Below, piece by piece: positions 1 to 46,561 of a stretch of 46,561 nucleotides of DNA. The translations under genes and the position numbers were made by a program. The notes beneath the pieces were generated by a model. That model did no database searches and was not told the origin of the DNA. It saw only the letters and a list, made by a program, of their open reading frames with translations. The stretch covers positions 1-46,561 of the forward strand of contig JAILGB010000002.1 of assembly GCA_024697185.1 (NCBI GenBank), given 5' to 3'. Each line of letters begins with the position of its first letter. Position 1 is the first letter of the stretch. The DNA is from Opitutales bacterium (GTDB taxonomy: Bacteria > Verrucomicrobiota > Verrucomicrobiia > Opitutales > UBA953).

Positions 1-1
1 T

Positions 2-2026
2 GATGTCACGACTTGGGTTTATGACGCGGGAACGGGACTTCTGCTCTCCAAAATCGACGTGGCAAATCAGGCGACGGTTTACACTTACAATTCCGCCGGG
101 CTGCTTGCCACGCGCACCTGGGCTCGCGGGATCGTGACAACGTATTCCTACGATTCCTGGAATCAGCTCACATCCACGAGCTATTCCGACCCGACTCCCG
201 CCGTTTCGCGTTCCTACGACCTTCTCGGCCGCCTCATCTCCGTCACCGACTCCGCGGGAACGACAAGCAAAACCTACGATTCCTACGGGAACGTCGCCAC
301 GGAAACTTTGAGCAAGGACGGCGAAACGCATTTGATAACGGAACTTTACGACAGTTTCGGTCGTCCCAGCGGCTACACTTATTCTCGGGATTCGGTGACG
401 CTGCAAACGGCGGGAACGGCTTACGACGCGGCGACGGGACGCATTGCGACGGCGAATTTTGTTCACGGGAACGAGACAAAAACTTTTGCTTACAATTACC
501 TCGCGGGAACGGATCTTTTAGAGTCATTGGCGTGTCCGAACGGTTTGACGCTCGGGAACGCTTATGATGCCGATCGCGATTTGCTGACGGGAATTTCGAT
601 TTGCCGCGGCGAGACGGAATTGCTTTCGCGGGCTTACAGTTACGATTCGCTCGGAAGACCGACCGCGCGTTCGGTTTCAAGAAACGGCATCACTCGAAAC
701 GATTCTTTCGGCTACAATTCGCGTTCGGAATTGGTTTCGGCGACTCTCGGGAACGACAGTTACGCCTATGCGTTTGACAATGTCGGGAACCGCCAAACGG
801 CAACGGAGGCGGGAACGAGTTCGGCATATTCGGTTAATAATTTAAATCAGTATCAGGCAATTGTTGAGACGACTGCGGGAACGCCGGTTTATTTCACACC
901 GATCCACGATGCCGACGGGAACGCGATTTTGGTGCGGACAGCAACGGGAACGTGGATTGTCGCCTACAATGCGGAAAACCGTCCTGTGCGCTTTGAGAAT
1001 TGGGGAACGGATATGGTCGTTGAGATGGTTTATGATAGCCAGGGACGGCGCGTTGAAAAGAAGGTTTCTGTCGCGGGAACGACGGTTTCTTATCATCGTT
1101 ATGTTTATCGGGGCTATTTGCAGATTGCGGCATTTGATTTGTTGGGGGCGTCGCATCCGGCATTGCGTTTTGTTTTGTGGGATCCGTCGCAGCCGACGGC
1201 AACGCGTCCGCTTGCGATTCAGCAGGGTGGCACTTGGTTCACTTACGGCTATGACCTCACAAAGAATATCTGCGAAGTTTTTGACGCTTTGGGCAATATT
1301 TGCACAACTTACGACTACGCTCCCTTCGGCTCGGTCACTTCCTCCGGCAATATTTCCCAGCCTTTCCAGTGGTCGTCGGAATTTTACGACTCCGAGTTAG
1401 CCTTAGTTTACTACAACTACCGCCACTACTCCCCTTACGACGGCCGCTTCCTCTCCCGCGACCCCATCAAAGAACAGGGAGGTTGGAATTTGTATGCGTT
1501 TGTGAAAAATAATTTAGTAAAACTTATAGATTTTTTAGGTTTAAAAGAAGATTATACTCATAGGACAATAAAATGTAAAAAACCAGATAGTTGTCCGTTG
1601 TTAAAGATAAAAGCAACACAATGGATATTGCATTATTCAAAACGTCAACAAGAATTATCTCTCGATAAGTATGATTTAAAAAATAAAAATCCAATAAAAT
1701 ATAATAATCATATTGATAAAATCGAAGAAGCACATAAAAATGCACTCGTTTGCATAGAAATATTGATAAAGAAAATAAATGATTGTAAATGTGGGAATAA
1801 CCCTCCAAAGGTTCCTACATTTTCTCCGAAATCGTTACCTACAAAAGTTTTGATTCTTAAAAACAATCATGATGAAATTGATTTTGAGAAGATTGGAATG
1901 GGACTTTTATGGGGTGGTATTGCAGTCGGGTTATTACTTCTCCCATTTGATGGTCCTGTTGGCGAGACGATAGCAGCCGGAATTGCAATAGGATATATAA
2001 CAGAGGGCATTTATGAAGAAAAATAG
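2..2026 (+). CDS. Rhs/YD-repeat protein, 3' part, with variable C-terminal toxin tip
   Basis: The frame is open from the window edge, so the real start lies upstream. The product is a secreted or cell-surface YD-repeat shell protein: repeats of the form YDSxGR (for example YDSLGRPTARS and YDSQGRRVEKK) run to about nt 1400. They end in the Rhs-associated core signature near nt 1400-1510 (YYNYRHYSPYDGRFLSRDP, then GGWNLYAFVKNN). After nt 1512 base composition turns sharply AT-rich and the sequence becomes unique. This is the usual architecture of polymorphic toxins, where the shell encloses a C-terminal toxin. The tip (about 170 residues) is lysine-rich and ends in a glycine-rich hydrophobic stretch (GMGLLWGGIAVGLLLLP, then AAGIAIG) that could insert into membranes; I recognise no nuclease motif. 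The shell part carries about 14 GGGAACG copies, the tip none. Confidence 0.9.
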   Translation, partial: DVTTWVYDAGTGLLLSKIDVANQATVYTYNSAGLLATRTWARGIVTTYSYDSWNQLTSTSYSDPTPAVSRSYDLLGRLISVTDSAGTTSKTYDSYGNVATETLSKDGETHLITELYDSFGRPSGYTYSRDSVTLQTAGTAYDAATGRIATANFVHGNETKTFAYNYLAGTDLLESLACPNGLTLGNAYDADRDLLTGISICRGETELLSRAYSYDSLGRPTARSVSRNGITRNDSFGYNSRSELVSATLGNDSYAYAFDNVGNRQTATEAGTSSAYSVNNLNQYQAIVETTAGTPVYFTPIHDADGNAILVRTATGTWIVAYNAENRPVRFENWGTDMVVEMVYDSQGRRVEKKVSVAGTTVSYHRYVYRGYLQIAAFDLLGASHPALRFVLWDPSQPTATRPLAIQQGGTWFTYGYDLTKNICEVFDALGNICTTYDYAPFGSVTSSGNISQPFQWSSEFYDSELALVYYNYRHYSPYDGRFLSRDPIKEQGGWNLYAFVKNNLVKLIDFLGLKEDYTHRTIKCKKPDSCPLLKIKATQWILHYSKRQQELSLDKYDLKNKNPIKYNNHIDKIEEAHKNALVCIEILIKKINDCKCGNNPPKVPTFSPKSLPTKVLILKNNHDEIDFEKIGMGLLWGGIAVGLLLLPFDGPVGETIAAGIAIGYITEGIYEEK

Positions 2027-2717
2027 TTGTTATTTGCGTCCGAATAAATTTAGTGATCCGGAAAAAGATTTTTCGGAAAAAGAACTTTTGCAGATTTTAG
2101 GGAAAAAGGACAAAGATTTAACAACACACGACTTTATGTGTATTTTTCAAACGATTCTCCATGCGGGAACGTATGAAGAATGTGTTTATTTTTTCCCGAT
2201 TGGAATTAAGTTTTTCGAAGCGAAGAAAGATATTGATGTTTTAGATTCGTTGATTGAATGGGCGTTGGAAAATGAGATTCGACTTAGGGAGGATAAAATC
2301 TGGCAAGAATTGGAATCCTGCCTGCTTGAGGAATTGCGAGCATCTTTTTCTGATTTTTCTTTGGAAAAAACAAGTGGGGGGATTTATCCTAAAAATTATG
2401 ATTTAATATCACTGCTTGCTGAAAAAAGCATAAAGAACAGGCAGATCGATCAAATTTTTTCTCCTGTTTTCAAACAATTTGTCCGTCCTCCTTTTTCGTA
2501 TGGATCCGCGTGTTGGTTTTTTATATTTTTGAAAGATTTTTATTATGTGCAACTCAAGACCGATTTGCAGAACGATTGCGGTTTTTTATCGATGCTAAGA
2601 TCATGGGGCGATGACGACGAATTGCAAAAAAGCGCGGAAAATTTAATTCTTACGAACGCTGGCTGTAATTGGGAATTAGAGTATTGGGTTGACGTATTGT
2701 ATCGTTGCGGCAGATAA
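2013..2717 (+). CDS. Candidate immunity protein for the Rhs tip
   Basis: A 234-residue, acidic, apparently cytoplasmic protein with no signal peptide and no family I recognise. Its ATG overlaps the last 14 nt of the Rhs gene, with an AGAGGG ribosome-site-like run 5 nt upstream. Such tight coupling directly behind a toxin tip is the standard place for an immunity gene. Composition is AT-rich like the tip, so the two probably arrived together. It contains one GGGAACG copy near 2163, the only one between about 1090 and 5640. Immunity function is inferred from position alone. If the toxin is membrane-active, an immunity protein without membrane segments would be somewhat unexpected, so another role is possible. 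Confidence 0.6.
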   Translation: MKKNSCYLRPNKFSDPEKDFSEKELLQILGKKDKDLTTHDFMCIFQTILHAGTYEECVYFFPIGIKFFEAKKDIDVLDSLIEWALENEIRLREDKIWQELESCLLEELRASFSDFSLEKTSGGIYPKNYDLISLLAEKSIKNRQIDQIFSPVFKQFVRPPFSYGSACWFFIFLKDFYYVQLKTDLQNDCGFLSMLRSWGDDDELQKSAENLILTNAGCNWELEYWVDVLYRCGR

Positions 2718-2761
2718 ATTAGAAGGGTGAATGATTAATTTAACCTGAACGAAAGTTCCCG

Positions 2762-3076
2762 ATGAAAAAACTTTTTTTAGGTATTATAGTTTTATTAATG
2801 GGGCATTTTAGCATTTTCACAAAAGATATAACTGTTGTATGGGCAAACAAATGTGAATTCTCATGGGAAGCAACATTTTATTTGGAAGATGTGACTGGCT
2901 CCAACACGCCTACGCTTAAAGATTTAAAGGGAAATGTTATAGCATTTCTTTATGATGCATCTATTCATTATAATCCGTATTTTTCTCATGTGTTGAAATA
3001 CACTTTTGCTTCAAGAACGGTCGTCATGGGGGAATGGATTGAATCTGGAACAGGCTGTTGCGATAAAATACAATGA
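2762..3076 (+). CDS. Small exported hypothetical protein
   Basis: 104 residues. The N-terminus (MKKLFLGIIVLLMGHFSIF) is a plausible Sec signal peptide without a clear lipobox. The mature part has Cys residues near the start and a CC pair near the C-terminus (GTGCCDK), compatible with a disulfide in the periplasm. No family recognised. Its stop overlaps the ATG of the next gene by 4 nt, so the two are likely translationally coupled. It sits in the AT-rich Rhs-tip island and may belong to an orphan toxin or immunity module; nothing in the sequence proves this. Confidence 0.5.
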   Translation: MKKLFLGIIVLLMGHFSIFTKDITVVWANKCEFSWEATFYLEDVTGSNTPTLKDLKGNVIAFLYDASIHYNPYFSHVLKYTFASRTVVMGEWIESGTGCCDKIQ

Positions 3077-3510
3077 AAAAAATATTATTGATAGGCGGTG
3101 GAAGCATTGTCGTTGTTTTAATATACTTGATGTGGGCTTTTATTTTGAGACCACAAGACCCATTATGTAATGTGACCGATAGGAGAAATTATACGATCTT
3201 AAAAATGGATCACTCTGTTGAAGGAATATGGGGGAGTAGTTGGTCTGAGTGTTTTTTGTATCGAATAGAGAATATTCCTAATTTTGAAAAAGACCTTTTC
3301 TCTTTTTTTCAGGAAAATGCAAAAAGTGATGCGTATGTATATACGTCTTATTTTGAAGACGATGCCATATCGTTTTCTCGAGAGTATCGGATAGATTCGT
3401 TTTCTGAAAAGTCGTCTCGTATGGACAATATTATTTATGGTTATTGGTGGCGATGTATTTTTTCCGAAAAGAAAAAACTCTGCTACATACAAATTATAAA
3501 ACCGGGTTAA
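3073..3510 (+). CDS. Membrane-anchored hypothetical protein
   Basis: 145 residues with one N-terminal membrane segment (about residues 4-26, GGGSIVVVLIYLMWAFIL) followed by a soluble, aromatic-rich domain, probably outside the inner membrane. No family recognised. It overlaps the preceding gene by 4 nt (ATGA). AT-rich codon use matches the neighbouring Rhs-tip genes and differs from the chromosomal backbone. An immunity or inhibitor role is possible by location only. Confidence 0.5.
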   Translation: MKKILLIGGGSIVVVLIYLMWAFILRPQDPLCNVTDRRNYTILKMDHSVEGIWGSSWSECFLYRIENIPNFEKDLFSFFQENAKSDAYVYTSYFEDDAISFSREYRIDSFSEKSSRMDNIIYGYWWRCIFSEKKKLCYIQIIKPG

Positions 3511-3520
3511 AAAATCAATT

Positions 3521-3709
3521 ATGGCAATAATAAATCCTCAGGGAAGGTGTCGCATATGTATGGAAGGATTTACTTACAGGTGTGATAATCCAGAAATAGT
3601 CATCACGTGCGTTTACGACAGCCAAGGTTGCGGTTTTGAGAAGAAAGTTTCCGTTGCGGAAATGCTTTTTTTACAACTTAAAGCTTGTGGGAATGGCGAA
3701 ACACCTTGA
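3521..3709 (+). pseudogene. Rhs/YD-repeat remnant
   Basis: A 62-codon open frame whose middle (VYDSQGCGFEKKVSVAE) closely matches VYDSQGRRVEKKVSVAG encoded at about 1027-1077 in the intact Rhs gene, and the residues just before it (NPEIVITC) resemble the equivalent stretch there. At DNA level the match is diverged but clear over about 50 nt near 3610-3660. This is best read as a fossil piece of an Rhs shell left by earlier tip replacement. An open frame may still exist by chance, so expression is doubtful. Confidence 0.7.
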
Positions 3710-3791
3710 CAGAAAATATTTTTTTGAGGATACTGAATAAGGCTTCGGAACCCCGCCGGAATGAAAAAACAATCGTTATAAAATACTCAAA

Positions 3792-4334
3792 ATGAGACAC
3801 ATTATTTGGTTATTAAAATTGTTCTTTTATATAATTTTCAGCATCTGCGCGATTATAGGAGCCGTTTCTTTGGTGGGCGTTGGCTATACTTTCTTTTTTT
3901 ATAGAACTCATTATGAAAAAATATCTTTGACGGAGAATATTTCAGAGAAGACGCGGCAAAAAATATATGATTTTTTCCCTGTTTTTAAAACTCATACTGA
4001 TGATTTGGAACTTTACGAAGAATTGCCAGTTGGTCCTCATAGTGGGAGAAGGGTTTTTGGCCGTGTTTTGTTAACAGAAAATGAATTGGCGGAGATAGAG
4101 TCAAATTGTTTTCCGCACTTAAAATTTGTAAATTCTGTTGATTTTTCTGACAAACTGTGGGGAAAAGATAGATTGTTGATTATCGGTTATTATGGTGTAG
4201 GTGCTGTTTTTTACAGGGATCCGGATCCTGAGTCAGAAAAATTTTTATATTTTGATTTTTCACTAAATTATTTGGATGGAATTTTAGATTATAAATTTAA
4301 AATCGAAGTTCAAAAATCGCAATTGCCACAATAA
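3792..4334 (+). CDS. Membrane-anchored hypothetical protein
   Basis: 180 residues. A long hydrophobic N-terminus (about residues 5-37) looks like one or two membrane segments, followed by a soluble domain of about 140 residues. No family recognised. A TAAAAT box at 3779-3784 lies 7 nt before the ATG, like the promoter arrangement of other genes here, although no good -35 box is visible. AT-rich and free of the GGGAACG motif, it lies between two Rhs fossils and so is probably cargo of a displaced Rhs tip. Confidence 0.5.
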   Translation: MRHIIWLLKLFFYIIFSICAIIGAVSLVGVGYTFFFYRTHYEKISLTENISEKTRQKIYDFFPVFKTHTDDLELYEELPVGPHSGRRVFGRVLLTENELAEIESNCFPHLKFVNSVDFSDKLWGKDRLLIIGYYGVGAVFYRDPDPESEKFLYFDFSLNYLDGILDYKFKIEVQKSQLPQ

Positions 4335-4368
4335 TAAATTTTCTATTTAAAGTTGATCTTCACAAAAC

Positions 4369-4470
4369 TTGCCGACAGAAATCGCTTATAATGGCAGCGT
4401 GAGCAGCCTCCTCGCAAAACGGGATTATACTTACGACTCGCTCGGGCGTGTCGTGTCGCGCACGCGAGCG
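4369..4470 (+). pseudogene. Rhs/YD-repeat fragment
   Basis: Read in the frame containing 4378-4380, this stretch gives EIAYNGSVSSLLAKRDY and then TYDSLGRVVSRTR, a textbook YD repeat. No start or stop belongs to it, and composition is GC-richer than the preceding 2.8 kb. It is a broken-off piece of an Rhs shell and marks the right edge of the Rhs region; the next gene's promoter begins about 20 nt later. Confidence 0.75.
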
Positions 4471-4489
4471 CGTGGGAGATTCTTCGTTG

Positions 4490-4519
4490 TTGCTCTTGCT
4501 TCTTGGTGGCAAGTATAAT
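4490..4519 (+). promoter_or_regulatory. Promoter of DUF3737 gene (leaderless)
   Basis: TTGCTC (4490-4495), an 18-nt spacer and a perfect TATAAT (4514-4519). The ATG at 4526 follows after 6 nt, so the expected transcription start falls on or next to the start codon. Confidence 0.65.
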
Positions 4520-4525
4520 GTTAGC

Positions 4526-5395
4526 ATGGATGATAAGAAGATTTTTACGGTGATCGCAAATCGGCAATTTGGCGGCGAGCGTCCCTTGTTCGGGCTTAAG
4601 GATTCCCGCTTGGAGTCGTTGACGGTTGTTGACGGCGAGAGTGCGGTCAAGCAATGTGAGAACATTGTTGTTGCCGACTGTAAATTTTTTGGCAAGTATC
4701 CGTTGTGGCATGTTAAGGGTTCTTTGATCGAGCGTTGTTATTTTGCGGCGGGCTCCCGTTCGGCGGTTTGGTATAGTGACGATATGACGATGCGGGACTG
4801 CGTTATCGACGGCCCTAAATTTTTTAGGGAGATGAACGGTTTGACGCTTGAGAATGTGGTGATCAAAGATGCGGATGAAGTGTTTTGGCGGGTGAACGGT
4901 TTGCGGGCGAAAAATCTTGTGCTCAAGGGCGGGACGTATCCGTTTATGTTTTGTCGGGATTTAGAGATTGACGGTTTGGATACGGACTCCAATTATGTTT
5001 TTCAGTACTGTAAAAATCTTGTGCTGCGCAATGCCAGGATCAATACGAAGGATGCGCTTTGGGAGTGTGAGGATGTGACGATTTATGATTCGGAGCTTTC
5101 GGGCGAATATCTTGCGTGGCATTCTAAAAATGTGCGTTTGGTGCGCTGTCGCATTTCGGGGGAGCAGGTTTTGTGTTATGCAAAAAATTTGCAGTTGGAG
5201 GATTGCAGTTTTGATGCGTCTTGCGATCGGGTTTTTGAGTATTCGGACGTTTGTGCGGAGATTCGTGGGAGCATCAGCAATATTAAGAATCCTCTAAGCG
5301 GTCGGATTGTCGCCGACAAAATCGGCTCGGTCACATATGATGAATTTTTGCCGCGCGGTGCGGATTGTAAAATTGAAGAAAGGAAAGCGTTATGA
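4526..5395 (+). CDS. DUF3737 family right-handed beta-helix-like protein
   Basis: 289 residues. The protein is a run of short repeating units with alternating hydrophobics and phrases such as WHVKGSLIERC, YSDDMTMRDC and CEDVTIYDSEL. This is typical of the DUF3737 family, thought to form a beta-helix; the biochemical role is unknown. I chose the ATG at 4526 because a TATAAT box ends 6 nt before it and upstream codons belong to the Rhs fossil. The gene overlaps the following aminotransferase by 4 nt (ATGA), so the two form an operon. No GGGAACG copies. Confidence 0.75.
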   Translation: MDDKKIFTVIANRQFGGERPLFGLKDSRLESLTVVDGESAVKQCENIVVADCKFFGKYPLWHVKGSLIERCYFAAGSRSAVWYSDDMTMRDCVIDGPKFFREMNGLTLENVVIKDADEVFWRVNGLRAKNLVLKGGTYPFMFCRDLEIDGLDTDSNYVFQYCKNLVLRNARINTKDALWECEDVTIYDSELSGEYLAWHSKNVRLVRCRISGEQVLCYAKNLQLEDCSFDASCDRVFEYSDVCAEIRGSISNIKNPLSGRIVADKIGSVTYDEFLPRGADCKIEERKAL

Positions 5396-6546
5396 AATAT
5401 GACTTTGACAAAATGATAGATCGTCGCGGGAGCGGTTCTTGCAAGTGGGACGAGGATCCGCGCGATGTGATTCCTTTGTGGATCGCCGATATGGATTTTG
5501 AAGCGGCGCCGTGCATTATCGAGGCTTTGCGGCGCCGGGTCGAGCATGGGGTTTTCGGTTATACGCATGTCGGGGATGATTTTTATAATGCGCTGACAAA
5601 TTGGTTTAGGCGTCGCCATGGTTGGGAGATCGGGCGTGAGCAGGTGCTTTATACGCCGACGGTCGTTCCCGCGGTGTCCGCGACGATCAAGGCTTTGTGC
5701 GCTCCCGGTGATGCGGTCGTGGTTTTGACGCCGGTTTACAATTGCTTTTTTTCATCCATTCGCAACAACGGTTGCAGGGTCGAGGAGTGCCCCTTGGTTT
5801 ACGGGAACGGCACTTATACGATTGATTTTGAAGATTTTGAGCGTCGCTTGTCGGATCCGGGCGTTAAAATGTTTTTGCATTGCAATCCGCACAATCCGGC
5901 GGGCAGGGTGTGGACCTTGGAGGAACAGACGCGCATCGCCGAGCTTTGTAAAAAATATGGCAAATATGTTGTGAGTGACGAAATCCATTGTGAGCTTGTG
6001 ATGCCGGGCTGTCGTCATCTGCCGTTCGCGACCGTTCCTGCTGTCGATCGCGCGCGCTTAGTTTCTCTGGTGTCTTCTTCAAAAGCTTTTAACACGGCGG
6101 GGCTTCAAATTGCCTGTGCGGTCGTTCCCGATGCGCAGGTTCGTGCAAAAATCAATCGGGCTATTAACATCAATGAAGTTTGCGATGTCAATCCGTTCGG
6201 CGTTCTCGGTCTGATCGCCGCTTACAACGGTGGCGAGGACTGGCTTGAAGAGCTGATTTCCTATGTGCGGGACAACTATCGTTTTTTGTGTGAATTTTTT
6301 AAGGAGCATTTCCCGCAATTTGAAGTCTGCAAGTTGGAGGCGACTTATCTTGCCTGGGTGAACATCAAGAGTAGCGGGAAGACTTCGCAGGAATTGACGG
6401 ATTTTTGGCGGGAACGCGCGCGCGTCCGCGTCGCGCCGGGAGCGATTTACGGGAACGCCGGAGAGGGTTTTGTCCGGATCAATCTCGCATGTCCGCGGGA
6501 ACGCTTGAAAACGGCGCTTGAGCGCCTGGCATCTGTTTCTTGCTAA
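5392..6546 (+). CDS. patB: PatB/MalY-type PLP-dependent aminotransferase / C-S lyase
   Basis: 384 residues, the usual length for the MalY/PatB group of fold-type I PLP enzymes, which cleave cystathionine or cysteine (beta-C-S lyase). Visible features: the N-terminal WIADMDF signature (residues 30-36), the HNPAGR motif (167-172), SDEIH with PLP-ring Asp196, and the predicted Schiff-base Lys231 in SSSKAFN. The C-terminal GxGFVRINLACPRE provides the substrate-carboxylate Arg. The start overlaps the stop of the DUF3737 gene, with AGGA 8-10 nt upstream, one of the few Shine-Dalgarno-like sites in the window. The precise substrate (cystathionine, cysteine or another amino acid) cannot be told. Confidence 0.88.
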   Translation: MKYDFDKMIDRRGSGSCKWDEDPRDVIPLWIADMDFEAAPCIIEALRRRVEHGVFGYTHVGDDFYNALTNWFRRRHGWEIGREQVLYTPTVVPAVSATIKALCAPGDAVVVLTPVYNCFFSSIRNNGCRVEECPLVYGNGTYTIDFEDFERRLSDPGVKMFLHCNPHNPAGRVWTLEEQTRIAELCKKYGKYVVSDEIHCELVMPGCRHLPFATVPAVDRARLVSLVSSSKAFNTAGLQIACAVVPDAQVRAKINRAININEVCDVNPFGVLGLIAAYNGGEDWLEELISYVRDNYRFLCEFFKEHFPQFEVCKLEATYLAWVNIKSSGKTSQELTDFWRERARVRVAPGAIYGNAGEGFVRINLACPRERLKTALERLASVSC

Positions 6547-10177: not shown

Positions 10178-12409
10178 ATGGCGGAACGGTTGGTCGGCGT
10201 TCTCGAGAAAATCGTTTGGAGCAATGAAGACACGCATTTTACCATCGCGGAGATTCATTGCGAGGGAAGCGATGTCTTTGGCGGCGATGTGACGATCAAA
10301 GGAATTTTGCCGGGCGTGCAGTGCGGCGAGACGCTCGAGTTGGAAGGCGAATGGATCTCCGATCGAAAATACGGCAGGCAGTTCAATGTCAAAACTTTTA
10401 AAAGCAAATTGCCGGCGAGCGTTCACGGAATCCGTAAATATTTGAGCAGCAAATTTGTCGAAGGCATCGGGAAAACCTATGCCAACCGCATCGTGGACAG
10501 ATTCGGTGCCGACACCTTCCGGATTATCTCGGAAGAGGCCGGCAGGCTGCGCGAGATCAAGGGCATCAGCGATCAGCGGATTTTGCGAATCCGGCGGGCA
10601 TGGGACCGGCATAGACGACTGCACGAGATTTTTTCGGAGATGCAGATTTACGGCATCAATATCAGCCAGTGTTCCAAGATTTTGGACCGTTACGGCGACG
10701 CGACGATGAAGACGATTCGCGCCAATCCCTATCGGCTGGCTTACGATATTCGCGGGATCGCGTTTCCGACGGCGGACAAAATCGCTCGCAACATGGGGCT
10801 CGGGAACGAAAATCCCTATCGGATCGATGCCGGAATTTTTTATACGCTCGAGGAAATCGAGTCGGAGGGACATACGGCGGCTCCCTGCGCTTTTTTGCGG
10901 GAACGCGCTGTGGAAAAATTGGACGTTCCCGCGACATTGGTGACGGCGGCGTTGGAAATATTGGTCCAAAAGGGAAAATTGCGGATCTTTGGCGGGCAAA
11001 GCGCGCTTCATGACGAGAGCCTTCTGTTGCGACCGAGTTTGGACTTGGCGGAAAAAGAGATTGCCGATTGCATTGCGAGGATTCGGGAGGCTTCGGGACG
11101 CTTGCCGGCGATAAAGGTGGAAATCGCGCTTGCTTGGGCACAGGATCGCGCCGGATTTGATTTCGCTCCCGAACAAATGGCGGCGATCAGGGCGGCTTTG
11201 CTCGAAAAATTTTCGGTGATTACAGGCGGTCCGGGAACGGGGAAAACGACAATTTTGAGCGCGCTTTGTGCGATTTTGAAGGCTAAAAAGACGACGATAA
11301 TGCTGGCGGCGCCGACGGGCCGGGCGGCGCAGCGGATGGCGGAGGCGACAGGCGTTCCCGCGCAGACAATCCACCGTATGCTCAACATCGGTGCGGGAAC
11401 GCGAAAAGACAGCGACGAAGAGTTGCGGGAACTGATTGCCGGCGGGAACGAGGAGGAGTCGGAGGATTTTTTGAAGGCGGATTTTGTGATCATTGACGAG
11501 GCTTCGATGTTGGACGCATCTCTGGCGGCGCAACTACTGCGGCGCATCGCTCCCGAGACGCATCTCGTCCTTGTCGGAGACGTTCATCAGCTGCCGAGTA
11601 TCGGTGCCGGAAATGTTTTGAGTGACATTATCCGTTCGGGAACGGTGGCGACAACGACCTTGCAGGCGGTTTTTCGTCAGGGTTCCCGTTCCGGCATCGT
11701 CACGACGGCGCACAATATTTTGAGGGGGGTGACGACACCTCCGCCCGAAGTTTTGAGTTTTGGGGAAATCGATACGGGGCGGGATATTTTCTTTTTGCCC
11801 TGCGAAAGCCCGGAGGAAACGAAGCGCAAGGTGCTTGAACTGGCGACAAAAGTGATTCCCAAACTCTTTGCCGTCGATCCCGTGAACGACATTCAGATTT
11901 TGACAGCGATGCACAAAGGGGAAGTCGGAGTGCAGGCGCTTAACGCGTATTTGCAAAAAGCCTATAAAAACATTCCTGCGGAAAATGCGACGATCAGTCA
12001 GCATCTCGAGCAGGGCGACAAAGTCATCCAGACGCGCAACAATTACGAAAAAAGCGTTTTTAACGGCGATATGGGAACGGTCGCTTCGATTGACAAAGAG
12101 ACGGGAACGGTCGTTGTAAAATTCGACAAGGCGACGGCAGAATATACAAAAAATGAAGCGCAGAGCGAATTGCAACTCGCCTATGCGATTACGATTCACA
12201 AATCGCAAGGCTCGGAGTTTCCCGTTGTCATCGTCCCGCTCGTCAAAGGCCAGTTTATGATGCTGCGCCGCAATCTCATCTATACGGCGATCACGCGCGG
12301 CAGAAAAAAAGTTTTTGTCGTCGGGCAGTCCGGCGCCTATTTTATGGCGGTCAAAAATGTCGAGGCGACCCGACGGATCACGACTTTGCGGGAACGGCTT
12401 TGCCGATAA
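10178..12409 (+). CDS. recD2: RecD2-type ATP-dependent DNA helicase
   Basis: 743 residues, the size of RecD2-type superfamily 1B helicases, which move 5'-3' on DNA without RecBC. The N-terminal OB-like and helix-hairpin-helix region (about 80-200, with EGIGKTYANRI and IKGISDQRIL) is followed by the helicase core: Walker A GGPGTGKTT (about 350), DEAS Walker B (VIIDEASMLD), GDVHQLPSIG, a late AITIHKSQGSEF motif and the YTAITRGRKKV motif VI. It is the last gene of the TPR-ExbB operon, its start 2 nt after the ExbB stop, without a Shine-Dalgarno. It holds about 11 GGGAACG copies. Confidence 0.92.
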   Translation: MAERLVGVLEKIVWSNEDTHFTIAEIHCEGSDVFGGDVTIKGILPGVQCGETLELEGEWISDRKYGRQFNVKTFKSKLPASVHGIRKYLSSKFVEGIGKTYANRIVDRFGADTFRIISEEAGRLREIKGISDQRILRIRRAWDRHRRLHEIFSEMQIYGINISQCSKILDRYGDATMKTIRANPYRLAYDIRGIAFPTADKIARNMGLGNENPYRIDAGIFYTLEEIESEGHTAAPCAFLRERAVEKLDVPATLVTAALEILVQKGKLRIFGGQSALHDESLLLRPSLDLAEKEIADCIARIREASGRLPAIKVEIALAWAQDRAGFDFAPEQMAAIRAALLEKFSVITGGPGTGKTTILSALCAILKAKKTTIMLAAPTGRAAQRMAEATGVPAQTIHRMLNIGAGTRKDSDEELRELIAGGNEEESEDFLKADFVIIDEASMLDASLAAQLLRRIAPETHLVLVGDVHQLPSIGAGNVLSDIIRSGTVATTTLQAVFRQGSRSGIVTTAHNILRGVTTPPPEVLSFGEIDTGRDIFFLPCESPEETKRKVLELATKVIPKLFAVDPVNDIQILTAMHKGEVGVQALNAYLQKAYKNIPAENATISQHLEQGDKVIQTRNNYEKSVFNGDMGTVASIDKETGTVVVKFDKATAEYTKNEAQSELQLAYAITIHKSQGSEFPVVIVPLVKGQFMMLRRNLIYTAITRGRKKVFVVGQSGAYFMAVKNVEATRRITTLRERLCR

Positions 12410-12437
12410 TTTTTGTTCCCGCGACAAGTCTTATAGA

Positions 12438-12466
12438 TTGAAAAACAGGACTTGCTTTTTTATAAT
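12438..12466 (+). promoter_or_regulatory. Promoter of M60 peptidase gene (leaderless)
   Basis: TTGAAA (12438-12443), 17-nt spacer, TATAAT (12461-12466), then 6 nt to the ATG at 12473. Confidence 0.7.
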
Positions 12467-12472
12467 AATTCT

Positions 12473-14239
12473 ATGATTTTTTCTAAAATCCCCTTGATCG
12501 TCGGAGCGCTCGGCATTCTTGCTTTTGGAACAATTACCTCATTTGCGGCTCCCAAATCTTCAAAAGGAGAAAGTGAAATTCCTCTTGAGGAGGTTTTGTC
12601 GCATCCGGTTTTTGCACCGATGAACAACGATAAGATTCCCGCTGCCAAAGATAAAATCATCGGGCAGTGGACTTGGGCGGACTGTCCCAAGGAGGAGGTG
12701 GATTTGCCGACAACGGAAAAACCTTGGAAGGACAAGGGGAAAATCTTAAGCCTGATTTCTAAAATCGACGAATATTTGCAGGGCGATCCCAAAAAGACAA
12801 AGGCTTTTCCCGCCGCAGAAATTTTCCCGGGCGTCCCTACCGGCGAATGCGATCTGTTGGCGCGGACGGTCGAGCTCGATCCGACGATCGGGGGATGGCA
12901 CAGCGTCGGGCTTTATGCGCCTCCCGGTCAAAAAATCAAATTGTCCCCTGTCGGGAAAAACCGTTGGCCGGTGACCCTGCGTATCGGATGCCACACGGAT
13001 TTTTTGACCATGAACCATATCGAAAAAAATCATAACGGCGAGTTGAAGCGCGCGCCCAAAATGACAAATACGATTCGCTTGGAAGCAGGCAAAAAATCGG
13101 TTGAACTGGCAAATCCTTTCGGCGGCTTGATTTATATTGATGTCCCTATTCAAGAAGGGAAACTGGCAAAACCGCAAAAATTTCTCATCGAAGGCGGGAT
13201 TATGTCGCCGCTTTATATCATGGGACCCAAGGATAAAAAAGGCGTCGAGATCGCAATCACTTCGCGGGAAGAATGGCAGCGCCAACTCCAGGAAACGCAT
13301 GCGCCTTGGGGCGAAATCGCCACGCCGCGACTGATTTTTACGCTGCCCAACAAATATTTGCAGATGATGAAAATCCCGCGCCGGGTCTGCAAAAATCTGC
13401 AAAACGGAATGGCGATGTGTGACTGGCTGATCGGTTGGGACGTTTATCATCCCAGACAAATTTACACGCCAATGCGTTTTGTAATCGACGTTCAAATTTC
13501 CGTCGGATGGGGGCACTCCGGTTATCCGGCAATGGGGTATATGGCGTGGGGCAATTGTATTCAAAACGGCAGTTTGGTCAAAGAGGGCAGTTGGGGACTT
13601 TTCCACGAACTCGGACATAATCACCAGTGGGCGCCATTCCGCTTTGAAGGCTGTGGCGAGGTCACCGTCAACTTGTTTTCTATAATCGCGCAAACGCACG
13701 GCGTCGGAGTCCCTTATGAACGCGCCTGGGACGGGACGGATGTTTCCGGACGCAGCATGTATGCTCCTGTGAATGAGTTCATCAAAAGCAAAAAAACATT
13801 TGACGAGGAGGAAGATGCCCGCCTCAAACTTTACTTTTTTGTCGAACTGATGCGCAGCTTGGGTTACGAGTCTTTTCGTAATGTCGCCTTGCGCCACCAC
13901 AAGGAAAAACCGAAGCTTTCGACCAATCAGGAATGCTGGGATTATTTCTTCCTGACACTCTGTGATGTGACGGATAAAAATTTAACGCCGTATTTTGAAC
14001 TTTGGAAAATTGACATTTCCCAAAAAGCGAAACAAAAAGCGAAGCGTTATAGGGAAGAATGGCTGCCGTGTCCCTCCTATCCGGCAAAAATGCCCGCCTA
14101 CAAAGAGGAAAACGCTGCGATAGCCGCCCGTATTCAGACTGCTGACGATGTCCAAAAGTCCAAACGGGACAAGGCTGCCGCCGAGAAGGCGGAGCAAGAA
14201 AAGAAGGAACGTCGCCGTAAAATGCTCGAAGCAATCTGA
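12473..14239 (+). CDS. Secreted M60-like (enhancin-type) zinc metallopeptidase
   Basis: 588 residues. A signal peptide (MIFSKIPLIVGALGILAFG, then TITSFAAP) sends it out of the cytoplasm. The centre has the gluzincin motif HELGHNHQW with a downstream Glu in FEGCGEV, the HEXXH...E zinc site of Peptidase_M60; the preceding beta-rich region fits the M60 N-terminal domain. M60-like enzymes cleave mucin-type glycoproteins. The C-terminus is a charged coiled coil (VQKSKRDKAAAEKAEQEKK) of unknown use. The ATG at 12473 is chosen over an upstream TTG because it sits 6 nt after TATAAT. The gene and its flanks (12420-14240) have no GGGAACG copy although both neighbours do, suggesting more recent acquisition. 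Confidence 0.88.
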   Translation: MIFSKIPLIVGALGILAFGTITSFAAPKSSKGESEIPLEEVLSHPVFAPMNNDKIPAAKDKIIGQWTWADCPKEEVDLPTTEKPWKDKGKILSLISKIDEYLQGDPKKTKAFPAAEIFPGVPTGECDLLARTVELDPTIGGWHSVGLYAPPGQKIKLSPVGKNRWPVTLRIGCHTDFLTMNHIEKNHNGELKRAPKMTNTIRLEAGKKSVELANPFGGLIYIDVPIQEGKLAKPQKFLIEGGIMSPLYIMGPKDKKGVEIAITSREEWQRQLQETHAPWGEIATPRLIFTLPNKYLQMMKIPRRVCKNLQNGMAMCDWLIGWDVYHPRQIYTPMRFVIDVQISVGWGHSGYPAMGYMAWGNCIQNGSLVKEGSWGLFHELGHNHQWAPFRFEGCGEVTVNLFSIIAQTHGVGVPYERAWDGTDVSGRSMYAPVNEFIKSKKTFDEEEDARLKLYFFVELMRSLGYESFRNVALRHHKEKPKLSTNQECWDYFFLTLCDVTDKNLTPYFELWKIDISQKAKQKAKRYREEWLPCPSYPAKMPAYKEENAAIAARIQTADDVQKSKRDKAAAEKAEQEKKERRRKMLEAI

Positions 14240-14273
14240 GCGTGCGCCGGGAACGCTTATTTTTTGAAAAACG

Positions 14274-17031: not shown

Positions 17032-17071
17032 AAAAAGCGCGTTCCCGCAAGTCACGGGAACGCGCTTTTTT
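17032..17071. terminator. Bidirectional terminator built from two inverted GGGAACG motifs
   Basis: GCGCGTTCCCG (17037-17047), a 7-nt loop, and CGGGAACGCGC (17055-17065) form a perfect 11-bp stem, flanked by A5 on the left and T6 on the right. It lies between the convergent htpG and MMPL genes and can stop transcription from both sides. Each arm contains one copy of the iterated motif. Confidence 0.9.
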
Positions 17072-20916: not shown

Positions 20917-20921
20917 TCGGC

Positions 20922-21341
20922 TTAGGCCTCAGGAAAAACGCGATGGAGGTGGTCGCGAAAAATTTGCGGGATCGTAAAAAGGGTTTCGCGGGAACGCAAA
21001 TCGACGCAAATTTGGGAAATGTCGCCGATTGTCAAAAGTTCGCCGTCCTCGCTTTTGACAAAAAATTTGAAGCGCAGGAAATTTTCAGCATCGACCAAAC
21101 GCGCCGTCACGAGGATTTTTTGTCTGAACCGGACGGGGCGGATATATTTGACATTCATTTTGACGACGGGAAAGGAATAGTGGTTTTCCGCCATATGCGC
21201 ATATGAAAAATCGATTTTGTCGAGAAATGCGCAACGTGCCGCTTCAAAGAATTTGACATAATTGCCGTGCCAAACGATGTTCATCGGATCGAGATCGTAA
21301 AACTCGGCGGTGATCGCGATTGTGATTTCCGGAGGATTCAT
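20922..21341 (-). CDS. 4-hydroxybenzoyl-CoA-type (YbgC-like) hotdog thioesterase
   Basis: 139 residues, single hotdog domain. The motif YDLDPMNIVWHGNYVKFFEAAR has the catalytic Asp and the HGNY segment of the 4HBT/YbgC group. These enzymes hydrolyse acyl-CoA or acyl-ACP thioesters in the cytoplasm. Position between the dehydratase (9 nt upstream) and acyltransferase (5 nt downstream) matches the thioesterase of aryl-polyene clusters. Confidence 0.85.
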   Translation of the reverse strand: MNPPEITIAITAEFYDLDPMNIVWHGNYVKFFEAARCAFLDKIDFSYAHMAENHYSFPVVKMNVKYIRPVRFRQKILVTARLVDAENFLRFKFFVKSEDGELLTIGDISQICVDLRSRETLFTIPQIFRDHLHRVFPEA

Positions 21342-21350
21342 AATTTTGGA

Positions 21351-21827: not shown

Positions 21828-21829
21828 GG

Positions 21830-23008: not shown

Positions 23009-23012
23009 AAAA

Positions 23013-28109: not shown

Positions 28110-28132
28110 ACGGTTTCGAAAACCGACAAAAG

Positions 28133-28168
28133 CGCGTTCCCGAAAAGTTTCACGGGAACGCGTTTTTT
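28133..28168 (+). terminator. argG terminator built from two inverted GGGAACG motifs
   Basis: CGCGTTCCCG (28133-28142), 10-nt loop, CGGGAACGCG (28153-28162), then T6. A perfect 10-bp stem with one motif copy in each arm, 23 nt after the argG stop. Confidence 0.88.
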
Positions 28169-38643: not shown

Positions 38644-38672
38644 AGTTTAAAAGCCGTTCCCGCGCTCGGCAA
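38644..38672 (-). promoter_or_regulatory. Promoter of hprK
   Basis: Minus strand: TTGCCG (38667-38672), 17-nt spacer containing one GGGAACG copy, TAAACT (38644-38649), 10 nt to the ATG at 38633. Confidence 0.5.
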
Positions 38673-38704
38673 TGTTTAATTCCCCGTTCCCGCGAAAATC
38701 TCAT

Positions 38705-38733
38705 TTGTCAATCCCTATGAAGAAAATTAGAAT
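38705..38733 (+). promoter_or_regulatory. Promoter of uvrB (leaderless)
   Basis: TTGTCA (38705-38710), 17-nt spacer, TAGAAT (38728-38733), 7 nt to the ATG at 38741. I see no convincing LexA-type palindrome. Confidence 0.6.
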
Positions 38734-38740
38734 GATTATT

Positions 38741-40717
38741 ATGTCAGAAAAACGATTTCGGCTTTGTTCCGACTATTCGCCGACGGGAGATCAGCCGCAG
38801 GCGATTGACCGTTTGGTGCGCAGCGTGCAAAAGGGCAACCGTTATCAGACGCTTTTGGGCGTGACGGGATCCGGCAAAACTTTTACGATGGCGAATATTA
38901 TCGAAAAAGTCCAACGGCCGACTTTGATCATTTCTCACAACAAAACGCTGGCGGCGCAACTTTACAGTGAGTTCAAGCATTTTTTCCCGGACAACGCCGT
39001 CGAATACTTTACGAGTTATTACGACTATTATCAGCCGGAGGCTTACGTTCCCGCGACGGATACGTATATTGAAAAAGATTCGCAGGTCAATGACGATCTC
39101 GAACGCCTGCGCATCGCCGCGTCGTCGGCGCTGATTTCGCGGCGCGATGTCATTGTCGTCGCGTCGGTTTCCTGCATTTACGGTTTGGGCTCGCCGGAGG
39201 ATTTTAAGGAAATGATGATCCCGATGCGGACGGGAATGCGGCTGGATCGCGAACAATTGCTCGAACAGCTCGTCGCAAACGCCTATACGCGCAACGACGT
39301 CGATTTGGCGCGATGCACTTTTCGCGTTCGCGGCGACACCGTGGACATTTTCCCCGCCTATATGGAGACCGCGATCCGGATTGTCTTTTTCGACGATGAA
39401 GTGGAGTCGATACGGGAACTCGATCCGCTTTTGTCAAAAGTCGGCAAAAAATTGGAGCGCTTTGATCTCTATCCCGCGACACAATGGGTGACGACAAAAG
39501 AGCGGCTCGCCCGCGGGATCAAAAAAATCCAGGCGGAACTCGAAGAGCGCGTCGCGACGTTTGAAAAAGAGGGAAAATTGCTTGAGGCGCAACGTATTCG
39601 CATGCGCACGGAAAACGACCTCGAACTTTTGCGCGAGACGGGATTTTGTTTCGGGATCGAAAATTATTCGATGCACATCGGCGGTCGCAAACCGAATCAG
39701 CGCCCGTGGTGCCTGCTGGACTTTTTTCCCGACGATTTTCTGATGTTTATCGACGAATCCCACGTGACGCTCCCGCAGATTTACGGAATGTCCCACGGGG
39801 ATCGTTCCCGCAAGGAAAAACTGGTGGAATTCGGCTTCCGTCTGCCGAGCGCGCTCGAAAACCGCCCGTTGCGCCCGGAAGAATTTAACGCTGTCGCCAA
39901 ACAAATCGTTTTTGTCTCGGCGACGCCGGCGCCTTTCGAACTGGAACATTCCGCCGTTGTCGCCGAGCAAATCATCCGCCCGACGGGATTGCTCGATCCC
40001 GAAATGGAAGTCCGTCCGATCGAAGGTCAGGTCGAAGACGTAATCAACGAAGCCGTCGAAGCCGCAAAAAAAGGCGAGCGCACGCTCGTGACGACTCTCA
40101 CCAAACGGATGGCGGAAGACATTTGCGAGTTTATGAAGGAACGCGGTTTGCGCGCCGATTATCTTCATTCGGATATCGATGCGATTGAGCGCGTGGAAAT
40201 CCTCAGACGGCTGCGCCGGGGCGACTTTGACGTTTTGATCGGCGTCAACCTTTTGCGCGAAGGACTCGATATTCCCGAGGCAGCGCTGGTGGCGATTCTC
40301 GACGCCGACAAGGAAGGTTTTCTGAGGAGCCAAACCTCACTCGTCCAAACGGCGGGACGCGCCGCACGCCATGAAAACGGGCGCGTCATCCTCTACGCCG
40401 ATGTGATGACCGACTCCCTCAAACGCGCCATTGCCATTTGCAAAACGCGCCGCAGCGCCCAGCAAGCCTATAATCGCGAACACAAAATCACTCCGCGCGG
40501 CGTCAAACGGGACGTGCAGGAAAGTCTTTTGCCCTACGGAGAGAAAAAAGGCGCGATGGGAAAAGCCCTCCCGGACACGACAAAATCAAAGGCGGGAGAA
40601 ATCACCGCCCTTATTGCCGAACTTCAAACGGAAATGCTCGCCGCAGCCGACGCACTACAATTTGAAAAAGCCGCGTTGCTTCGCGATCAGATCGCAATTT
40701 TGCGCGGCAAAAAATAA
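38741..40717 (+). CDS. uvrB: Excinuclease ABC subunit B
   Basis: 658 residues from the ATG at 38741 (MSEKRFRLCSDY), chosen because the promoter lies just before it; three upstream in-frame starts would be untranscribed. Walker A GVTGSGKTF, the beta-hairpin region YYDYYQPEAYVP, DESHVTLPQ, RPTGLLDP, the late helicase motif QTAGRAARH and the C-terminal UVR coiled coil (LQTEMLAAADALQFEKAALL) are all present. It verifies DNA damage and positions UvrC in nucleotide excision repair. Two GGGAACG copies in 2 kb. Confidence 0.97.
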   Translation: MSEKRFRLCSDYSPTGDQPQAIDRLVRSVQKGNRYQTLLGVTGSGKTFTMANIIEKVQRPTLIISHNKTLAAQLYSEFKHFFPDNAVEYFTSYYDYYQPEAYVPATDTYIEKDSQVNDDLERLRIAASSALISRRDVIVVASVSCIYGLGSPEDFKEMMIPMRTGMRLDREQLLEQLVANAYTRNDVDLARCTFRVRGDTVDIFPAYMETAIRIVFFDDEVESIRELDPLLSKVGKKLERFDLYPATQWVTTKERLARGIKKIQAELEERVATFEKEGKLLEAQRIRMRTENDLELLRETGFCFGIENYSMHIGGRKPNQRPWCLLDFFPDDFLMFIDESHVTLPQIYGMSHGDRSRKEKLVEFGFRLPSALENRPLRPEEFNAVAKQIVFVSATPAPFELEHSAVVAEQIIRPTGLLDPEMEVRPIEGQVEDVINEAVEAAKKGERTLVTTLTKRMAEDICEFMKERGLRADYLHSDIDAIERVEILRRLRRGDFDVLIGVNLLREGLDIPEAALVAILDADKEGFLRSQTSLVQTAGRAARHENGRVILYADVMTDSLKRAIAICKTRRSAQQAYNREHKITPRGVKRDVQESLLPYGEKKGAMGKALPDTTKSKAGEITALIAELQTEMLAAADALQFEKAALLRDQIAILRGKK

Positions 40718-44699: not shown

Positions 44700-45800
44700 A
44701 TGAGTTTAAAGAAAAATAAAAAGAAATATTGTATTCCCGATTCTCCGATAAAAAAATTTAAAGAGGCTCAAGCTGCATTTTGTGAAAAATTAACAGATGA
44801 ACAAAATCAGATACTTGAGGAAATCATCCCTTTCCCGCCGCCTCAAAATTTTAAATTTACATTTATCGATTTGTTTGCTGGAATAGGTGGTTTTCGTATA
44901 GCGCTTCAAAATCTCGGCGGGAAGTGCGTTTTTTCGTCAGAGTGGGATGCTCAAGCGCAAAAAACATATTTTCACAATTTTGGGGAAATGCCCCATGGAG
45001 ATATTACGCTTGAAAAAACAAAGGCTGCGATTCCTGATAATTTTGATATTCTTTGCGCAGGGTTCCCGTGTCAGGCCTTTTCTATTGCTGGACATCAAAA
45101 GGGATTCGAGGATACAAGAGGAACACTTTTCTTTGATGTTGCGGAAATTATCCGTAGAAAGAGACCGCGCGCTGTTTTTCTTGAAAATGTAAAAAATTTG
45201 CAGACCCACGATAACGGTAAAACATTTACAGTTATTAAATCCACCTTGGAAAATCTTGGGTATGCTGTATATTTTAAGGTGATGAATGCGATGGAATTCG
45301 CGAATGTTCCACAAACTCGCGAACGAATTTTTATTGTTTGTTTTGATAAAAGTCGCATTATAAATCATGAAAAATTTTCGTTCCCGAAAGCAGAAAATTT
45401 GACCCGAACAATACACGATTGTATTGACGAGCTAACGGCAAGTTCGGATCTTTATTACACAAAAAAAATGGGGCATTACCAAGATTTGGTTGAAGGAATC
45501 AAGTCGAAAGATAGCATTTACCAATGGAGAAGAATGTATGTCCGTCAAAATAAAAGCCATGTTTGCCCAACACTTACGGCGAATATGGGAACGGGTGGGC
45601 ACAATGTGCCATTAATTTTGACTTCTTCAGGAATCCGGAAATTGTCCCCAAAAGAATGTTTGAATTTCCAGGGATATCCTCAAAAATATTCGTTCCCGCA
45701 AAGTATAGCAAATTCATCGAAATATAAGCAGGCTGGTAATTCGGTAGTTGTCCCTCTTATTCAAAAAGTATGTCAGAAAATTTGTCAGATATTGTTTTAA
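44700..45800 (+). CDS. DNA (cytosine-5) methyltransferase
   Basis: 366 residues with all main m5C motifs: I FIDLFAGIGGFR, IV GFPCQAFS with the catalytic Cys, VI FLENVKN, VIII QTRERIF, and the C-terminal IX-X segment ending in KQAGNSVVVPLI. The target-recognition region is short (about residues 230-300), typical of type II enzymes. It modifies a specific cytosine; the site cannot be read from sequence. It overlaps the next gene by 31 nt. The codon use is AT-rich, unlike the backbone, so it is probably acquired; yet it carries a few GGGAACG copies, suggesting some time in this genome. Confidence 0.93.
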   Translation: MSLKKNKKKYCIPDSPIKKFKEAQAAFCEKLTDEQNQILEEIIPFPPPQNFKFTFIDLFAGIGGFRIALQNLGGKCVFSSEWDAQAQKTYFHNFGEMPHGDITLEKTKAAIPDNFDILCAGFPCQAFSIAGHQKGFEDTRGTLFFDVAEIIRRKRPRAVFLENVKNLQTHDNGKTFTVIKSTLENLGYAVYFKVMNAMEFANVPQTRERIFIVCFDKSRIINHEKFSFPKAENLTRTIHDCIDELTASSDLYYTKKMGHYQDLVEGIKSKDSIYQWRRMYVRQNKSHVCPTLTANMGTGGHNVPLILTSSGIRKLSPKECLNFQGYPQKYSFPQSIANSSKYKQAGNSVVVPLIQKVCQKICQILF

Positions 45801-46561
45801 ATTTTAAAGAAAATTGGAAAGACAATTCTAAATATATTGATGCTCTTGCAAAAATTGCAGGTTTGTCGAATTTATTTTCTGAGAACGATGCTCCTTATTT
45901 GGATTATCGCTTGGCGGAAAATCTCTTTATAAAATTTTTTAACGCAATAAATGATGCCCGCTCGTGTAAGGCGTTTGACGCTCGTCTTGGCGAAATGGGA
46001 ATTGGAATAAAGACTTTTTTGTTAAAAAATTCTGCGTCGATAGAAAAAATTGCGGAATTTAATAAATGTAGACCCAAATTGGAGTCATTAACAGGTATGG
46101 ACTTGGCAAGACGTCTTGCGGAGTTTAGAAATAAAAGGTTTGAGTCTCCCGAAGATTTTAAAAAACTCAACGCAAAAATCCGGGAGGAGCTCCCGGCGCT
46201 GGCGTGGTGGCTCGACGAGTATTTTACCGTTCCCGCGGAAGCGGTGCCAACCCCGGGCTGTCTCTACGAGATACGCAACGGTATGCGCTGCTACTGCCAC
46301 CGGGACTGCGAGGCGCTGCTGGCGGAGAACGACCGCTCGCTGATCCTCCTCGAGCAATACGACGCCGCCGCCTTTGCGTCGGACGGGACAAAAGCGTGGT
46401 CGTCGCGGTCGCAATATTACAACTGCCGCCGCTTGGCGAAGGAAATCGGCACGGCTGCGGGATTTGATAAGACGTCGCCGGAGCAAATCTCGGCGTGGCT
46501 GCGGTCGCTTGCGTCGCGTCCGGACACGGGCGCCCGCGTCGAAGCGGCGCGCGACAACGGC
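45770..46561 (+). CDS. Restriction-endonuclease-like N-terminus fused in frame to primase-like tail (partial)
   Basis: Open for 264 codons from the ATG at 45770 to the window edge, without a stop. Residues 1 to about 125 are AT-rich and resemble type II restriction enzymes of the NgoFVII/PLD kind (LAENLFIKFFNAI, DARLGEMGIGIKTFL, KIAEFNK, LARRLAEFRNKRFE). From about nt 46175 GC content jumps and the protein (REELPALAWWLDEYF, then YEIRNGMRCYCH) looks like the C-terminus of a phage or plasmid primase/helicase. So the nuclease seems truncated and joined to an older element gene. Family assignments of both halves rest on pattern memory. Confidence 0.6.
   Translation, partial: MSENLSDIVLNFKENWKDNSKYIDALAKIAGLSNLFSENDAPYLDYRLAENLFIKFFNAINDARSCKAFDARLGEMGIGIKTFLLKNSASIEKIAEFNKCRPKLESLTGMDLARRLAEFRNKRFESPEDFKKLNAKIREELPALAWWLDEYFTVPAEAVPTPGCLYEIRNGMRCYCHRDCEALLAENDRSLILLEQYDAAAFASDGTKAWSSRSQYYNCRRLAKEIGTAAGFDKTSPEQISAWLRSLASRPDTGARVEAARDNG

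Follow-up and report, generated by a model that had tools for sequence, protein, structure and literature searches.

The stretch of DNA analyzed here (the window: positions 1 to 46,561 of contig JAILGB010000002.1, assembly GCA_024697185.1, from an Opitutales bacterium) raises a simple question: what places and keeps the same short word, GGGAACG or its complement CGTTCCC, at site after site, within genes and between them? The initial annotation had proposed a DNA-uptake or HIP1-like element. Our answer, to which we give an even chance, is that the longer form of the word, GCGGGAACG, is a DNA uptake sequence, found outside the two families known for them. We favor this reading because the word is non-palindromic, limited to one genus, born by substitution, conserved at synonymous sites and used in terminator-like structures, because its bearers have genes for a type IV pilus and ComEC, and because it has eroded in some relatives. 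It resembles DNA uptake sequences (DUS) and uptake signal sequences (USS) in most of the features that can be looked for in sequence, which supports this half of the proposal in part; membership of the highly iterated palindromes (HIPs, of which HIP1 is one) fails, since the word is not a palindrome. To our knowledge, genomic uptake words come from Pasteurellaceae and Neisseriaceae only. These are also the two families named for uptake sequences in PMC1939737. In a literature search that left most subscription papers outside, we found no report of this word and no paper joining Verrucomicrobi*, natural transformation and uptake sequence; one paper mentions Spyradosoma, and of 98 papers containing the string GCGGGAACG, the 15 listed look unrelated by title.

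In the window, we count 99 copies of GGGAACG and 82 of CGTTCCC, compared with a mean of 9.6 and a maximum of 18 for both together in 100 dinucleotide-preserving shuffles. The enrichment is therefore about 19-fold; the hand estimate of about 30-fold, over some 6 expected copies, was too high, and its count of 99 was exact while that of 81 on the other strand was one short. The 181 aligned copies share the core CGGGAACG, with C in front of the heptamer in 94% and a preferred G before the core in 59%. Beyond that G there is no extended consensus of the kind that the initial annotation had suggested looking for, only weak upstream preferences (C or T at -4, not A at -3); the information is at most about 0.1 bit at five bases upstream and two downstream of the seed. 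Nor is the enrichment confined to the window. Across the whole genome (G000; 1,589,236 bases in 32 contigs), GCGGGAACG occurs 1,662 times on one strand and 1,826 times on the other, 3,488 in all, whereas the same letters reversed, our control in every genome compared, occur 21 and 27 times (48). A Markov test, which had also been proposed, agrees. Over the 1,584,868 bases used for k-mer and Markov counts in this genome, an order-3 model predicts 146 copies of GCGGGAACG and we find 3,479, the highest z-score of all 9-mers; CGGGAACG is found 5,310 times against an expected 409, an expectation itself inflated by the word, and the best 8-mers unrelated to it show an excess of at most about 440. 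These counts amount to 3.3 per kb for the 8-mer and 2.2 per kb for the 9-mer. Among one-base variants, the most enriched are those at position 6 (A to T 765 compared with 132 expected; A to G 522 compared with 100) and position 8 (G to A 598 compared with 72), and no variant elsewhere exceeds 2.3 times expectation. As a recognition profile, this is sharp. Both GCGGGAACG and the 8-base core are unlike their own reverse complements.

By the window's UvrB, the nearest named relatives are Opitutales gut assemblies and Candidatus Spyradosoma merdigallinarum, Spyradosoma being placed by taxonomy in the Verrucomicrobiota, Opitutia. The six closest named loci carry the word, five of them (L052-L056) at 2.6-5.1 per kb and the sixth (L073) at 0.96 per kb, whereas 18 more distant loci (L057-L072, L074, L075) have 0 or 1 copy each. 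Relatives do share the word, as the initial annotation had envisaged: six of the eight genomes of the genus (G000 to G007) hold 5,192-6,550 copies of CGGGAACG, or 2.7-3.9 per kb, with reversed controls of 75-105 (75-145 across all eight). The word-poor congeners are G001, with 1,362 copies and of which L073 is a piece (100% match over 1,600 bases), and G006, with 546. In each of the 29 genomes from other genera of the family the count is no more than 1.7 times that of the reversed control. Among 236 genomes sampled across the class, the 3 that are enriched all belong to the genus; the other 233 show no enrichment, all being within about 2.7 times control. The genus is the limit of the word, and it appears, judging from L056, to include Candidatus Spyradosoma. 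Within it the form of the word is unchanged from 49% GC (L055) to 64-65% GC (L056 and pieces of G002). The dialects that had been anticipated in relatives did not appear: no single replacement word was found in 176 kb of G001 and 133 kb of G006, which are eroded instead. One candidate dialect, GGTTGGTGG, present 113 times in the 133 kb of G006, was rejected, its copies being clustered repeats; G006 loci L034-L036 and L234-L243 contain clusters of GGGTTGGTGGTGG-type repeats, several of them at contig ends. No word-rich phage was seen among 80 of at least 120 viral-contig stretches with paired words, where only two fragments, of 1.3 and 1.9 kb, exceeded 1.2 words per kb.

Comparison of close relatives indicates that the words are maintained at the DNA level, because fourfold-degenerate sites within them are better conserved than those outside. 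Between L052 and L053, which are 90.2% identical over 15 kb, fourfold sites with an unchanged amino acid match at 98 of 102 positions (96%) in words and at 1,610 of 2,155 (75%) elsewhere; whole words are identical in 48 of 56 cases, compared with 49% of other 8-mers. Between L054 and L055 the corresponding fourfold figures are 39 of 39 and 1,049 of 1,197 (87.6%). At greater distance, word-rich congeners carry an identical copy of the G000 word at 23-38% of alignable sites (eight comparisons with at least 20 sites), against a baseline of 7-10%; two smaller comparisons gave 71% of 7 sites (L055) and 56% of 9 (L056). Between word-rich congeners a word is mostly either perfect or gone, one-mismatch states lying below baseline (4.8-9.8% compared with 16.5-21.7%). 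Alignment gaps bear on how the word arises: in five comparisons with at least 69 words, 0-2.2% of words lie wholly within an alignment gap and at least 92% lie outside gaps in each, implying point mutation, not insertion. An inserted repeat was accordingly rejected, the window flanks having no conserved unit beyond the word.

The two word-poor congeners seem, on small numbers, to be natural controls in which the maintaining force has stopped. At G000 word sites, G001 is identical in 5.6% and one mismatch away in 16.7%, and G006 in 3.9% and 15.5%; the small L073 sample gave 37.5% identity at 16 sites. Of the distinct sites that G000 has in common with a word-rich species, none of 10 is intact in G001 (7 differ by one base; other shared 8-mers 37%) and none of 9 in G006 (3 differ by one base; other shared 8-mers 28%). 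L073 retains the exact L052 word at 3 of 8 sites, near the 31% of other 8-mers. Residual sites of G001 and G006 are found in G000 at 32% of 37 and 41% of 17, compared with 7% and 6%; because the word is identical and these residual sites are common to G000, loss is suggested rather than a double gain. An unrooted concatenated tree (four pilus proteins plus DprA) joins G001 and G006 at 51% support. Transfer of uvrB has probably distorted the rooted UvrB tree, leaving the rooting unsettled. UvrB encoded by G001 (L073:9977-12037) is 96-97% identical to that of L052-L055, whereas its PilT and PilB-like proteins are only 79-83% identical to those of G002-G005 and G007; a transfer of uvrB between species is probable, assuming that L052-L055 belong to the G003-G007 group. 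The G001 uvrB locus has 3 words at the same locus positions as L052.

The word does not follow from what the genes encode. Of 3,992 words in genes of G000, 353 are left when codons are shuffled synonymously within genes, which argues against codon usage as the source. All six frame and orientation classes are enriched, though unevenly (234 to 1,371 per class), as is DNA between genes, which excludes a single protein motif. The initial annotation had drawn both conclusions from the window, together with the presence of copies in every codon frame and both orientations, and they hold genome-wide. Within genes, 2,270 words are sense and 1,722 antisense (57% sense). Intergenic density is 4.43 per kb, compared with 3.10 per kb in genes, figures that depend on a simple gene caller that misses genes. 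The mark left on proteins is unusually large. The three most over-represented tripeptides of G000 are AGT (1,075 observed, 180 expected), VPA (808, 135) and RER (338, 85), and 961 of 1,076 AGT tripeptides are encoded over the word. In pieces of word-rich congeners the three take second to fourth place; enrichment is partial in the word-poor congeners (AGT 84 compared with 34) and absent from the family's other genera and from other Opitutales.

Inverted pairs of the word appear to act as terminators. In G000, 161 pairs have the arrangement CGTTCCCG...CGGGAACG 9-26 bases apart; 129 lie between genes and 69 have a T-run next to them, compared with 33 and 4 among 78 pairs in the opposite arrangement. 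Two such hairpins are present in the window (Table 1): the one behind htpG folds at -26.9 kcal/mol (z -5.64) and the one behind argG at -23.2 kcal/mol (z -5.43). Inverted pairs at terminators are likewise described for DUS (PMC3630211). Another 50 pairs in G000, 10 of them intergenic, meet head to head without a gap and so form the 16-base palindrome CGTTCCCGCGGGAACG.

The competence genes that the initial annotation had suggested seeking were found in part: ComEC and type IV pilus genes are present, whereas ComEA was not found. In G000, PilC-, PilT- and two PilB-like proteins are encoded in one cluster. The sole secretin match belongs with the Amuc_1098 family and adjoins Amuc_1100-like and PilM-like (Amuc_1101) genes (G000:C18:111-120 kb; L143:12891-19808). 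This gene group resembles the Akkermansia type IV pilus (Amuc_1098-1101), from which it differs in that all matches score below the curated equivalog cut-offs, making them relatives and not equivalogs. PilT, ComEC, DprA and a small prepilin are present in all eight members of the genus, so that the presence or absence of the small prepilin, of PilT or of DprA was rejected as the switch; the secretin was found in seven and not in the fragmented G002. Both G001 and G006 have an extra secretin (GspD-like in G001, below cut-off) and an extra PilB/PilT-family ATPase. Seven prepilin-like genes of G000 are receptor candidates, none singled out; a protein search with the small prepilin returned only two relatives besides itself. 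A regular-expression scan for a prepilin peptidase gave no convincing match.

Words stand in either orientation, within genes as well as between genes, and avoid sequence under constraint. Outside one region to which we return below, only 6 of 508 3-kb windows of G000 are word-free. Three are clusters whose first residues, read by eye, suggest rpoB, fusA and ribosomal-protein genes; the end of C28 accounts for two more, the genes scanned next to them being for glycan synthesis; and one is a GmrSD locus on C18. Around that locus, C18:141.8-151.8 kb has low GC, methyltransferase motifs (by eye) and two GmrSD-type proteins, with no words in 146.3-151.8 kb. The largest gap, 15 kb on C15 (15.7-30.7 kb; L027, L169), is likely to be the replication origin. 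Its genes match ExbB, MnmG, MnmE, ArgS, DnaN and signal peptidase; GC skew switches from negative to positive at about 25.25 kb; and of 8 one-mismatch DnaA-box-like sites in 18 kb, 3 fall within 220 bases between argS and dnaN. A foreign island, considered on GC alone, was set aside, as genes and skew point to an origin. GC drops as a V from 54% to 30%, centered at the argS-dnaN point, and GC at third codon positions is 0.24-0.33 in seven of eight genes of the gap (ExbB 0.43), compared with a mean of 0.63 for called genes. Low GC alone does not exclude words, because four other windows below 38% GC hold 4-13 words each. Overall, words and GC covary (r = 0.57 over 589 overlapping 5-kb windows). 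Near the likely origin, words number 22 + and 28 - on the left arm and 6 + and 13 - on the right. The argS of sister-genus locus L051 sits in DNA with no trough, although the origin may not be near there. We suggest that the origin is a cold spot of whatever installs the words, and the gap may mean that words follow recombination.

How might uptake produce this pattern? The word would be bound by a pilin of the type IV pilus of this genus, or by a protein at the pilus tip; fragments bearing the word would be taken up more often, so that DNA of the cell's own kind would be preferred in natural transformation; and repeated replacement by word-bearing alleles would push point mutations toward the word wherever the protein tolerates it. 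Once specificity was lost, words would decay, as they appear to have done in G001 and G006. In the GC-poor, word-free region of the likely origin, imported DNA would seldom take the place of resident sequence. The fuller proposal, namely a third and independent origin of uptake sequences, in the Verrucomicrobiota, in which an Akkermansia-type pilus sorts self DNA by GCGGGAACG, the proteome has been reshaped, and words and GC together record replacement by imported DNA with a cold origin, we hold tentatively, as falling a little short of an even chance. If true, an independent case in a distant phylum would allow one to ask which features of uptake systems recur and which are accidents, and it would suggest that gut bacteria represented mostly by assemblies exchange DNA in a sequence-specific manner. 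As controls, the genus itself offers six genomes rich in the word and two in which it has eroded, a GC range of 49-65%, and a sharp trough at the likely origin.

The word resembles known uptake sequences in several respects. Like the DUS of Neisseriaceae, especially kingDUS of Kingella oralis (5,918 copies in 2.4 Mb; PMC3630211), this is an over-represented word of about 10 bases with thousands of copies, genic and intergenic; it also shares with DUS the inverted pairs at terminators, the location in permissive regions and the presence in relatives. It differs from DUS in word and phylum; no ComP-like receptor was identified, and ComEA was not found. Like the USS of Pasteurellaceae, it has a 9-base core; known uptake sequences prefer one orientation in reading frames (PMC2346458), as the sense majority does here. 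USS, too, is reported to arise by substitution and not insertion, and to be weaker in H. ducreyi, where competence genes are broken (PMC1626085). Unlike USS, the window copies have no extended flanking consensus, and the density is higher.

Several observations weigh against an uptake sequence. The densities given above equal or exceed the highest one reported for a DUS, that of kingDUS at about 2.5 per kb (PMC3630211). In intergenic words, L055 agrees with L054 at 53 of 56 positions, compared with 95.0% of other intergenic bases, which is little or no excess. L073, although a piece of eroded G001, keeps 1 of 2 shared sites, or 5 of 10 counting species pairs. Words overlap gaps in 4.3-7.9% of cases, compared with 1.9-3.7% for other 8-mers. 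The PF12836 profile found no ComEA in the eight genomes: the strong match in each lies in a frame of 773-831 amino acids, and five further matches, one in a 186-amino-acid frame of G002, are below cut-off. ComEC was found in 35 of the 38 genomes searched, by a search that also matches in E. coli; because sister genera without the word have ComEC, the word cannot be predicted from the machinery by itself. Nor can erosion be put down to loss of the machine, because G001 and G006 keep PilT, the PilB-like pair, ComEC, DprA and the small prepilin; a changed receptor would have to be invoked. Finally, the data consist entirely of assemblies, each species being represented by a single genome.

Of the alternatives, a HIP1-like word, made or kept by an internal process such as methylation-linked repair or another chromosome function, fares best, though we consider it unlikely. 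HIP1 and the alternate HIPs of cyanobacteria share with our word extreme iteration and restriction to lineages with exceptional low-copy members; they reach about 1,000-2,000 sites per million bases, are palindromes, and each genome with them has a methyltransferase predicted to recognize part of the site (PMC4390886). The density here is similar or higher, sites are conserved between relatives, and HIP sites too are spread by a DNA-level process that is unsettled. Our word, in contrast, is not a palindrome, and a tie to a methyltransferase is unproven. The C5 methyltransferase of the window is not conserved with the word, having no match in G002 and G005, two of the six word-rich genomes, and was rejected as its cause; PF01555 enzymes occur in all eight genomes, but the sole ones of G004 (277 amino acids) and G007 (401 amino acids) look like different types by frame length. 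No methyltransferase conserved with the word was found through these two enzymes; Dam-type enzymes (PF02086) were not searched for.

More doubtful is a Chi-like landmark for recombination and repair, or a conversion-biased word spread by internal recombination during replication or repair. It would account for the word-free, GC-poor origin region; in its favor, words and GC vary together and collapse at the same point, and the four GC-poor windows elsewhere keep words. Chi and KOPS (FtsK-orienting polar sequences), however, are strongly oriented, and known Chi sites are far sparser than 3.3 per kb. Only 56.1% of 4,907 words are on the G-rich strand, a bias too weak for either, as the initial annotation had argued. 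The genus limit and the erosion in two congeners would also be left unexplained. We think it improbable that the word is bound by some abundant protein of the nucleoid or of segregation that only this genus has: genome-wide spread, short-range clustering (coefficient of variation of gaps 1.56 in G000) and a strong consensus with few tolerant positions would suit such a protein, but orientation bias is weak, conserved gene clusters and the origin are devoid of words, and no candidate protein is known. Hardly credible is a mobile repeat scattered over the genome, or a side effect of codon usage or of some protein motif, since the excess of AGT, VPA and RER and the closeness of words to gaps (12.9% compared with 4.8% of other 8-mers within 9 bases, G000 against word-rich congeners) are outweighed by the effect of synonymous shuffling, the spread over six frames and intergenic DNA, the uninformative window flanks and the few words wholly in gaps.

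Table 1. Features of the window, and additional pilus-related loci in two congeners
Feature	Position	Strand	Remarks
Word population	1..46561	both	181 GGGAACG/CGTTCCC (99 +, 82 -); 170 are CGGGAACG, 104 are GCGGGAACG
Cluster of 14 words, all in + orientation	28..1081	+	13 in Rhs-repeat gene (59-2026)
Word-free stretch, DUF3737 gene and neighbors	2172..5663	.	0 words
Word-free stretch with M60 peptidase gene (12452-14239)	12397..14248	.	0 words
Terminator-like hairpin behind Hsp90 (HtpG) gene	17032..17070	+	Words at 17040 (-) and 17056 (+) form the stem; T-run at end
Operon of ketosynthase, thioesterase and lipid A acyltransferase-like genes	17089..23606	-	39 words, 6.0 per kb
Terminator-like hairpin behind argG	28128..28167	+	Inverted words at 28135 (-) and 28154 (+); T-run at end
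uvrB, anchor for named relatives	38672..40717	+	3 words
C5-cytosine methyltransferase gene	44700..45800	+	37% GC, 3 words
Extra secretin/ATPase loci	G001:C36:62072-62560, G006:C62:12870-13358, G001:C66, G006:C75

Within the window, the uneven distribution that had been noted from the letters is real. Words are dense in the Rhs gene (6.6 per kb) and in the ketosynthase/acyltransferase operon, which the initial annotation had labeled an aryl-polyene operon, and scarce in plsX (0), the M60 gene (0) and argG (1). The M60 peptidase gene and the DUF3737 gene (4448-5395), word-free in a word-rich window, are perhaps recent arrivals. A last observation concerns another short motif: GTAC occurs only 211 times in 1.585 Mb of G000, and CGGGTACG only twice, a strong avoidance, as of a restriction target.

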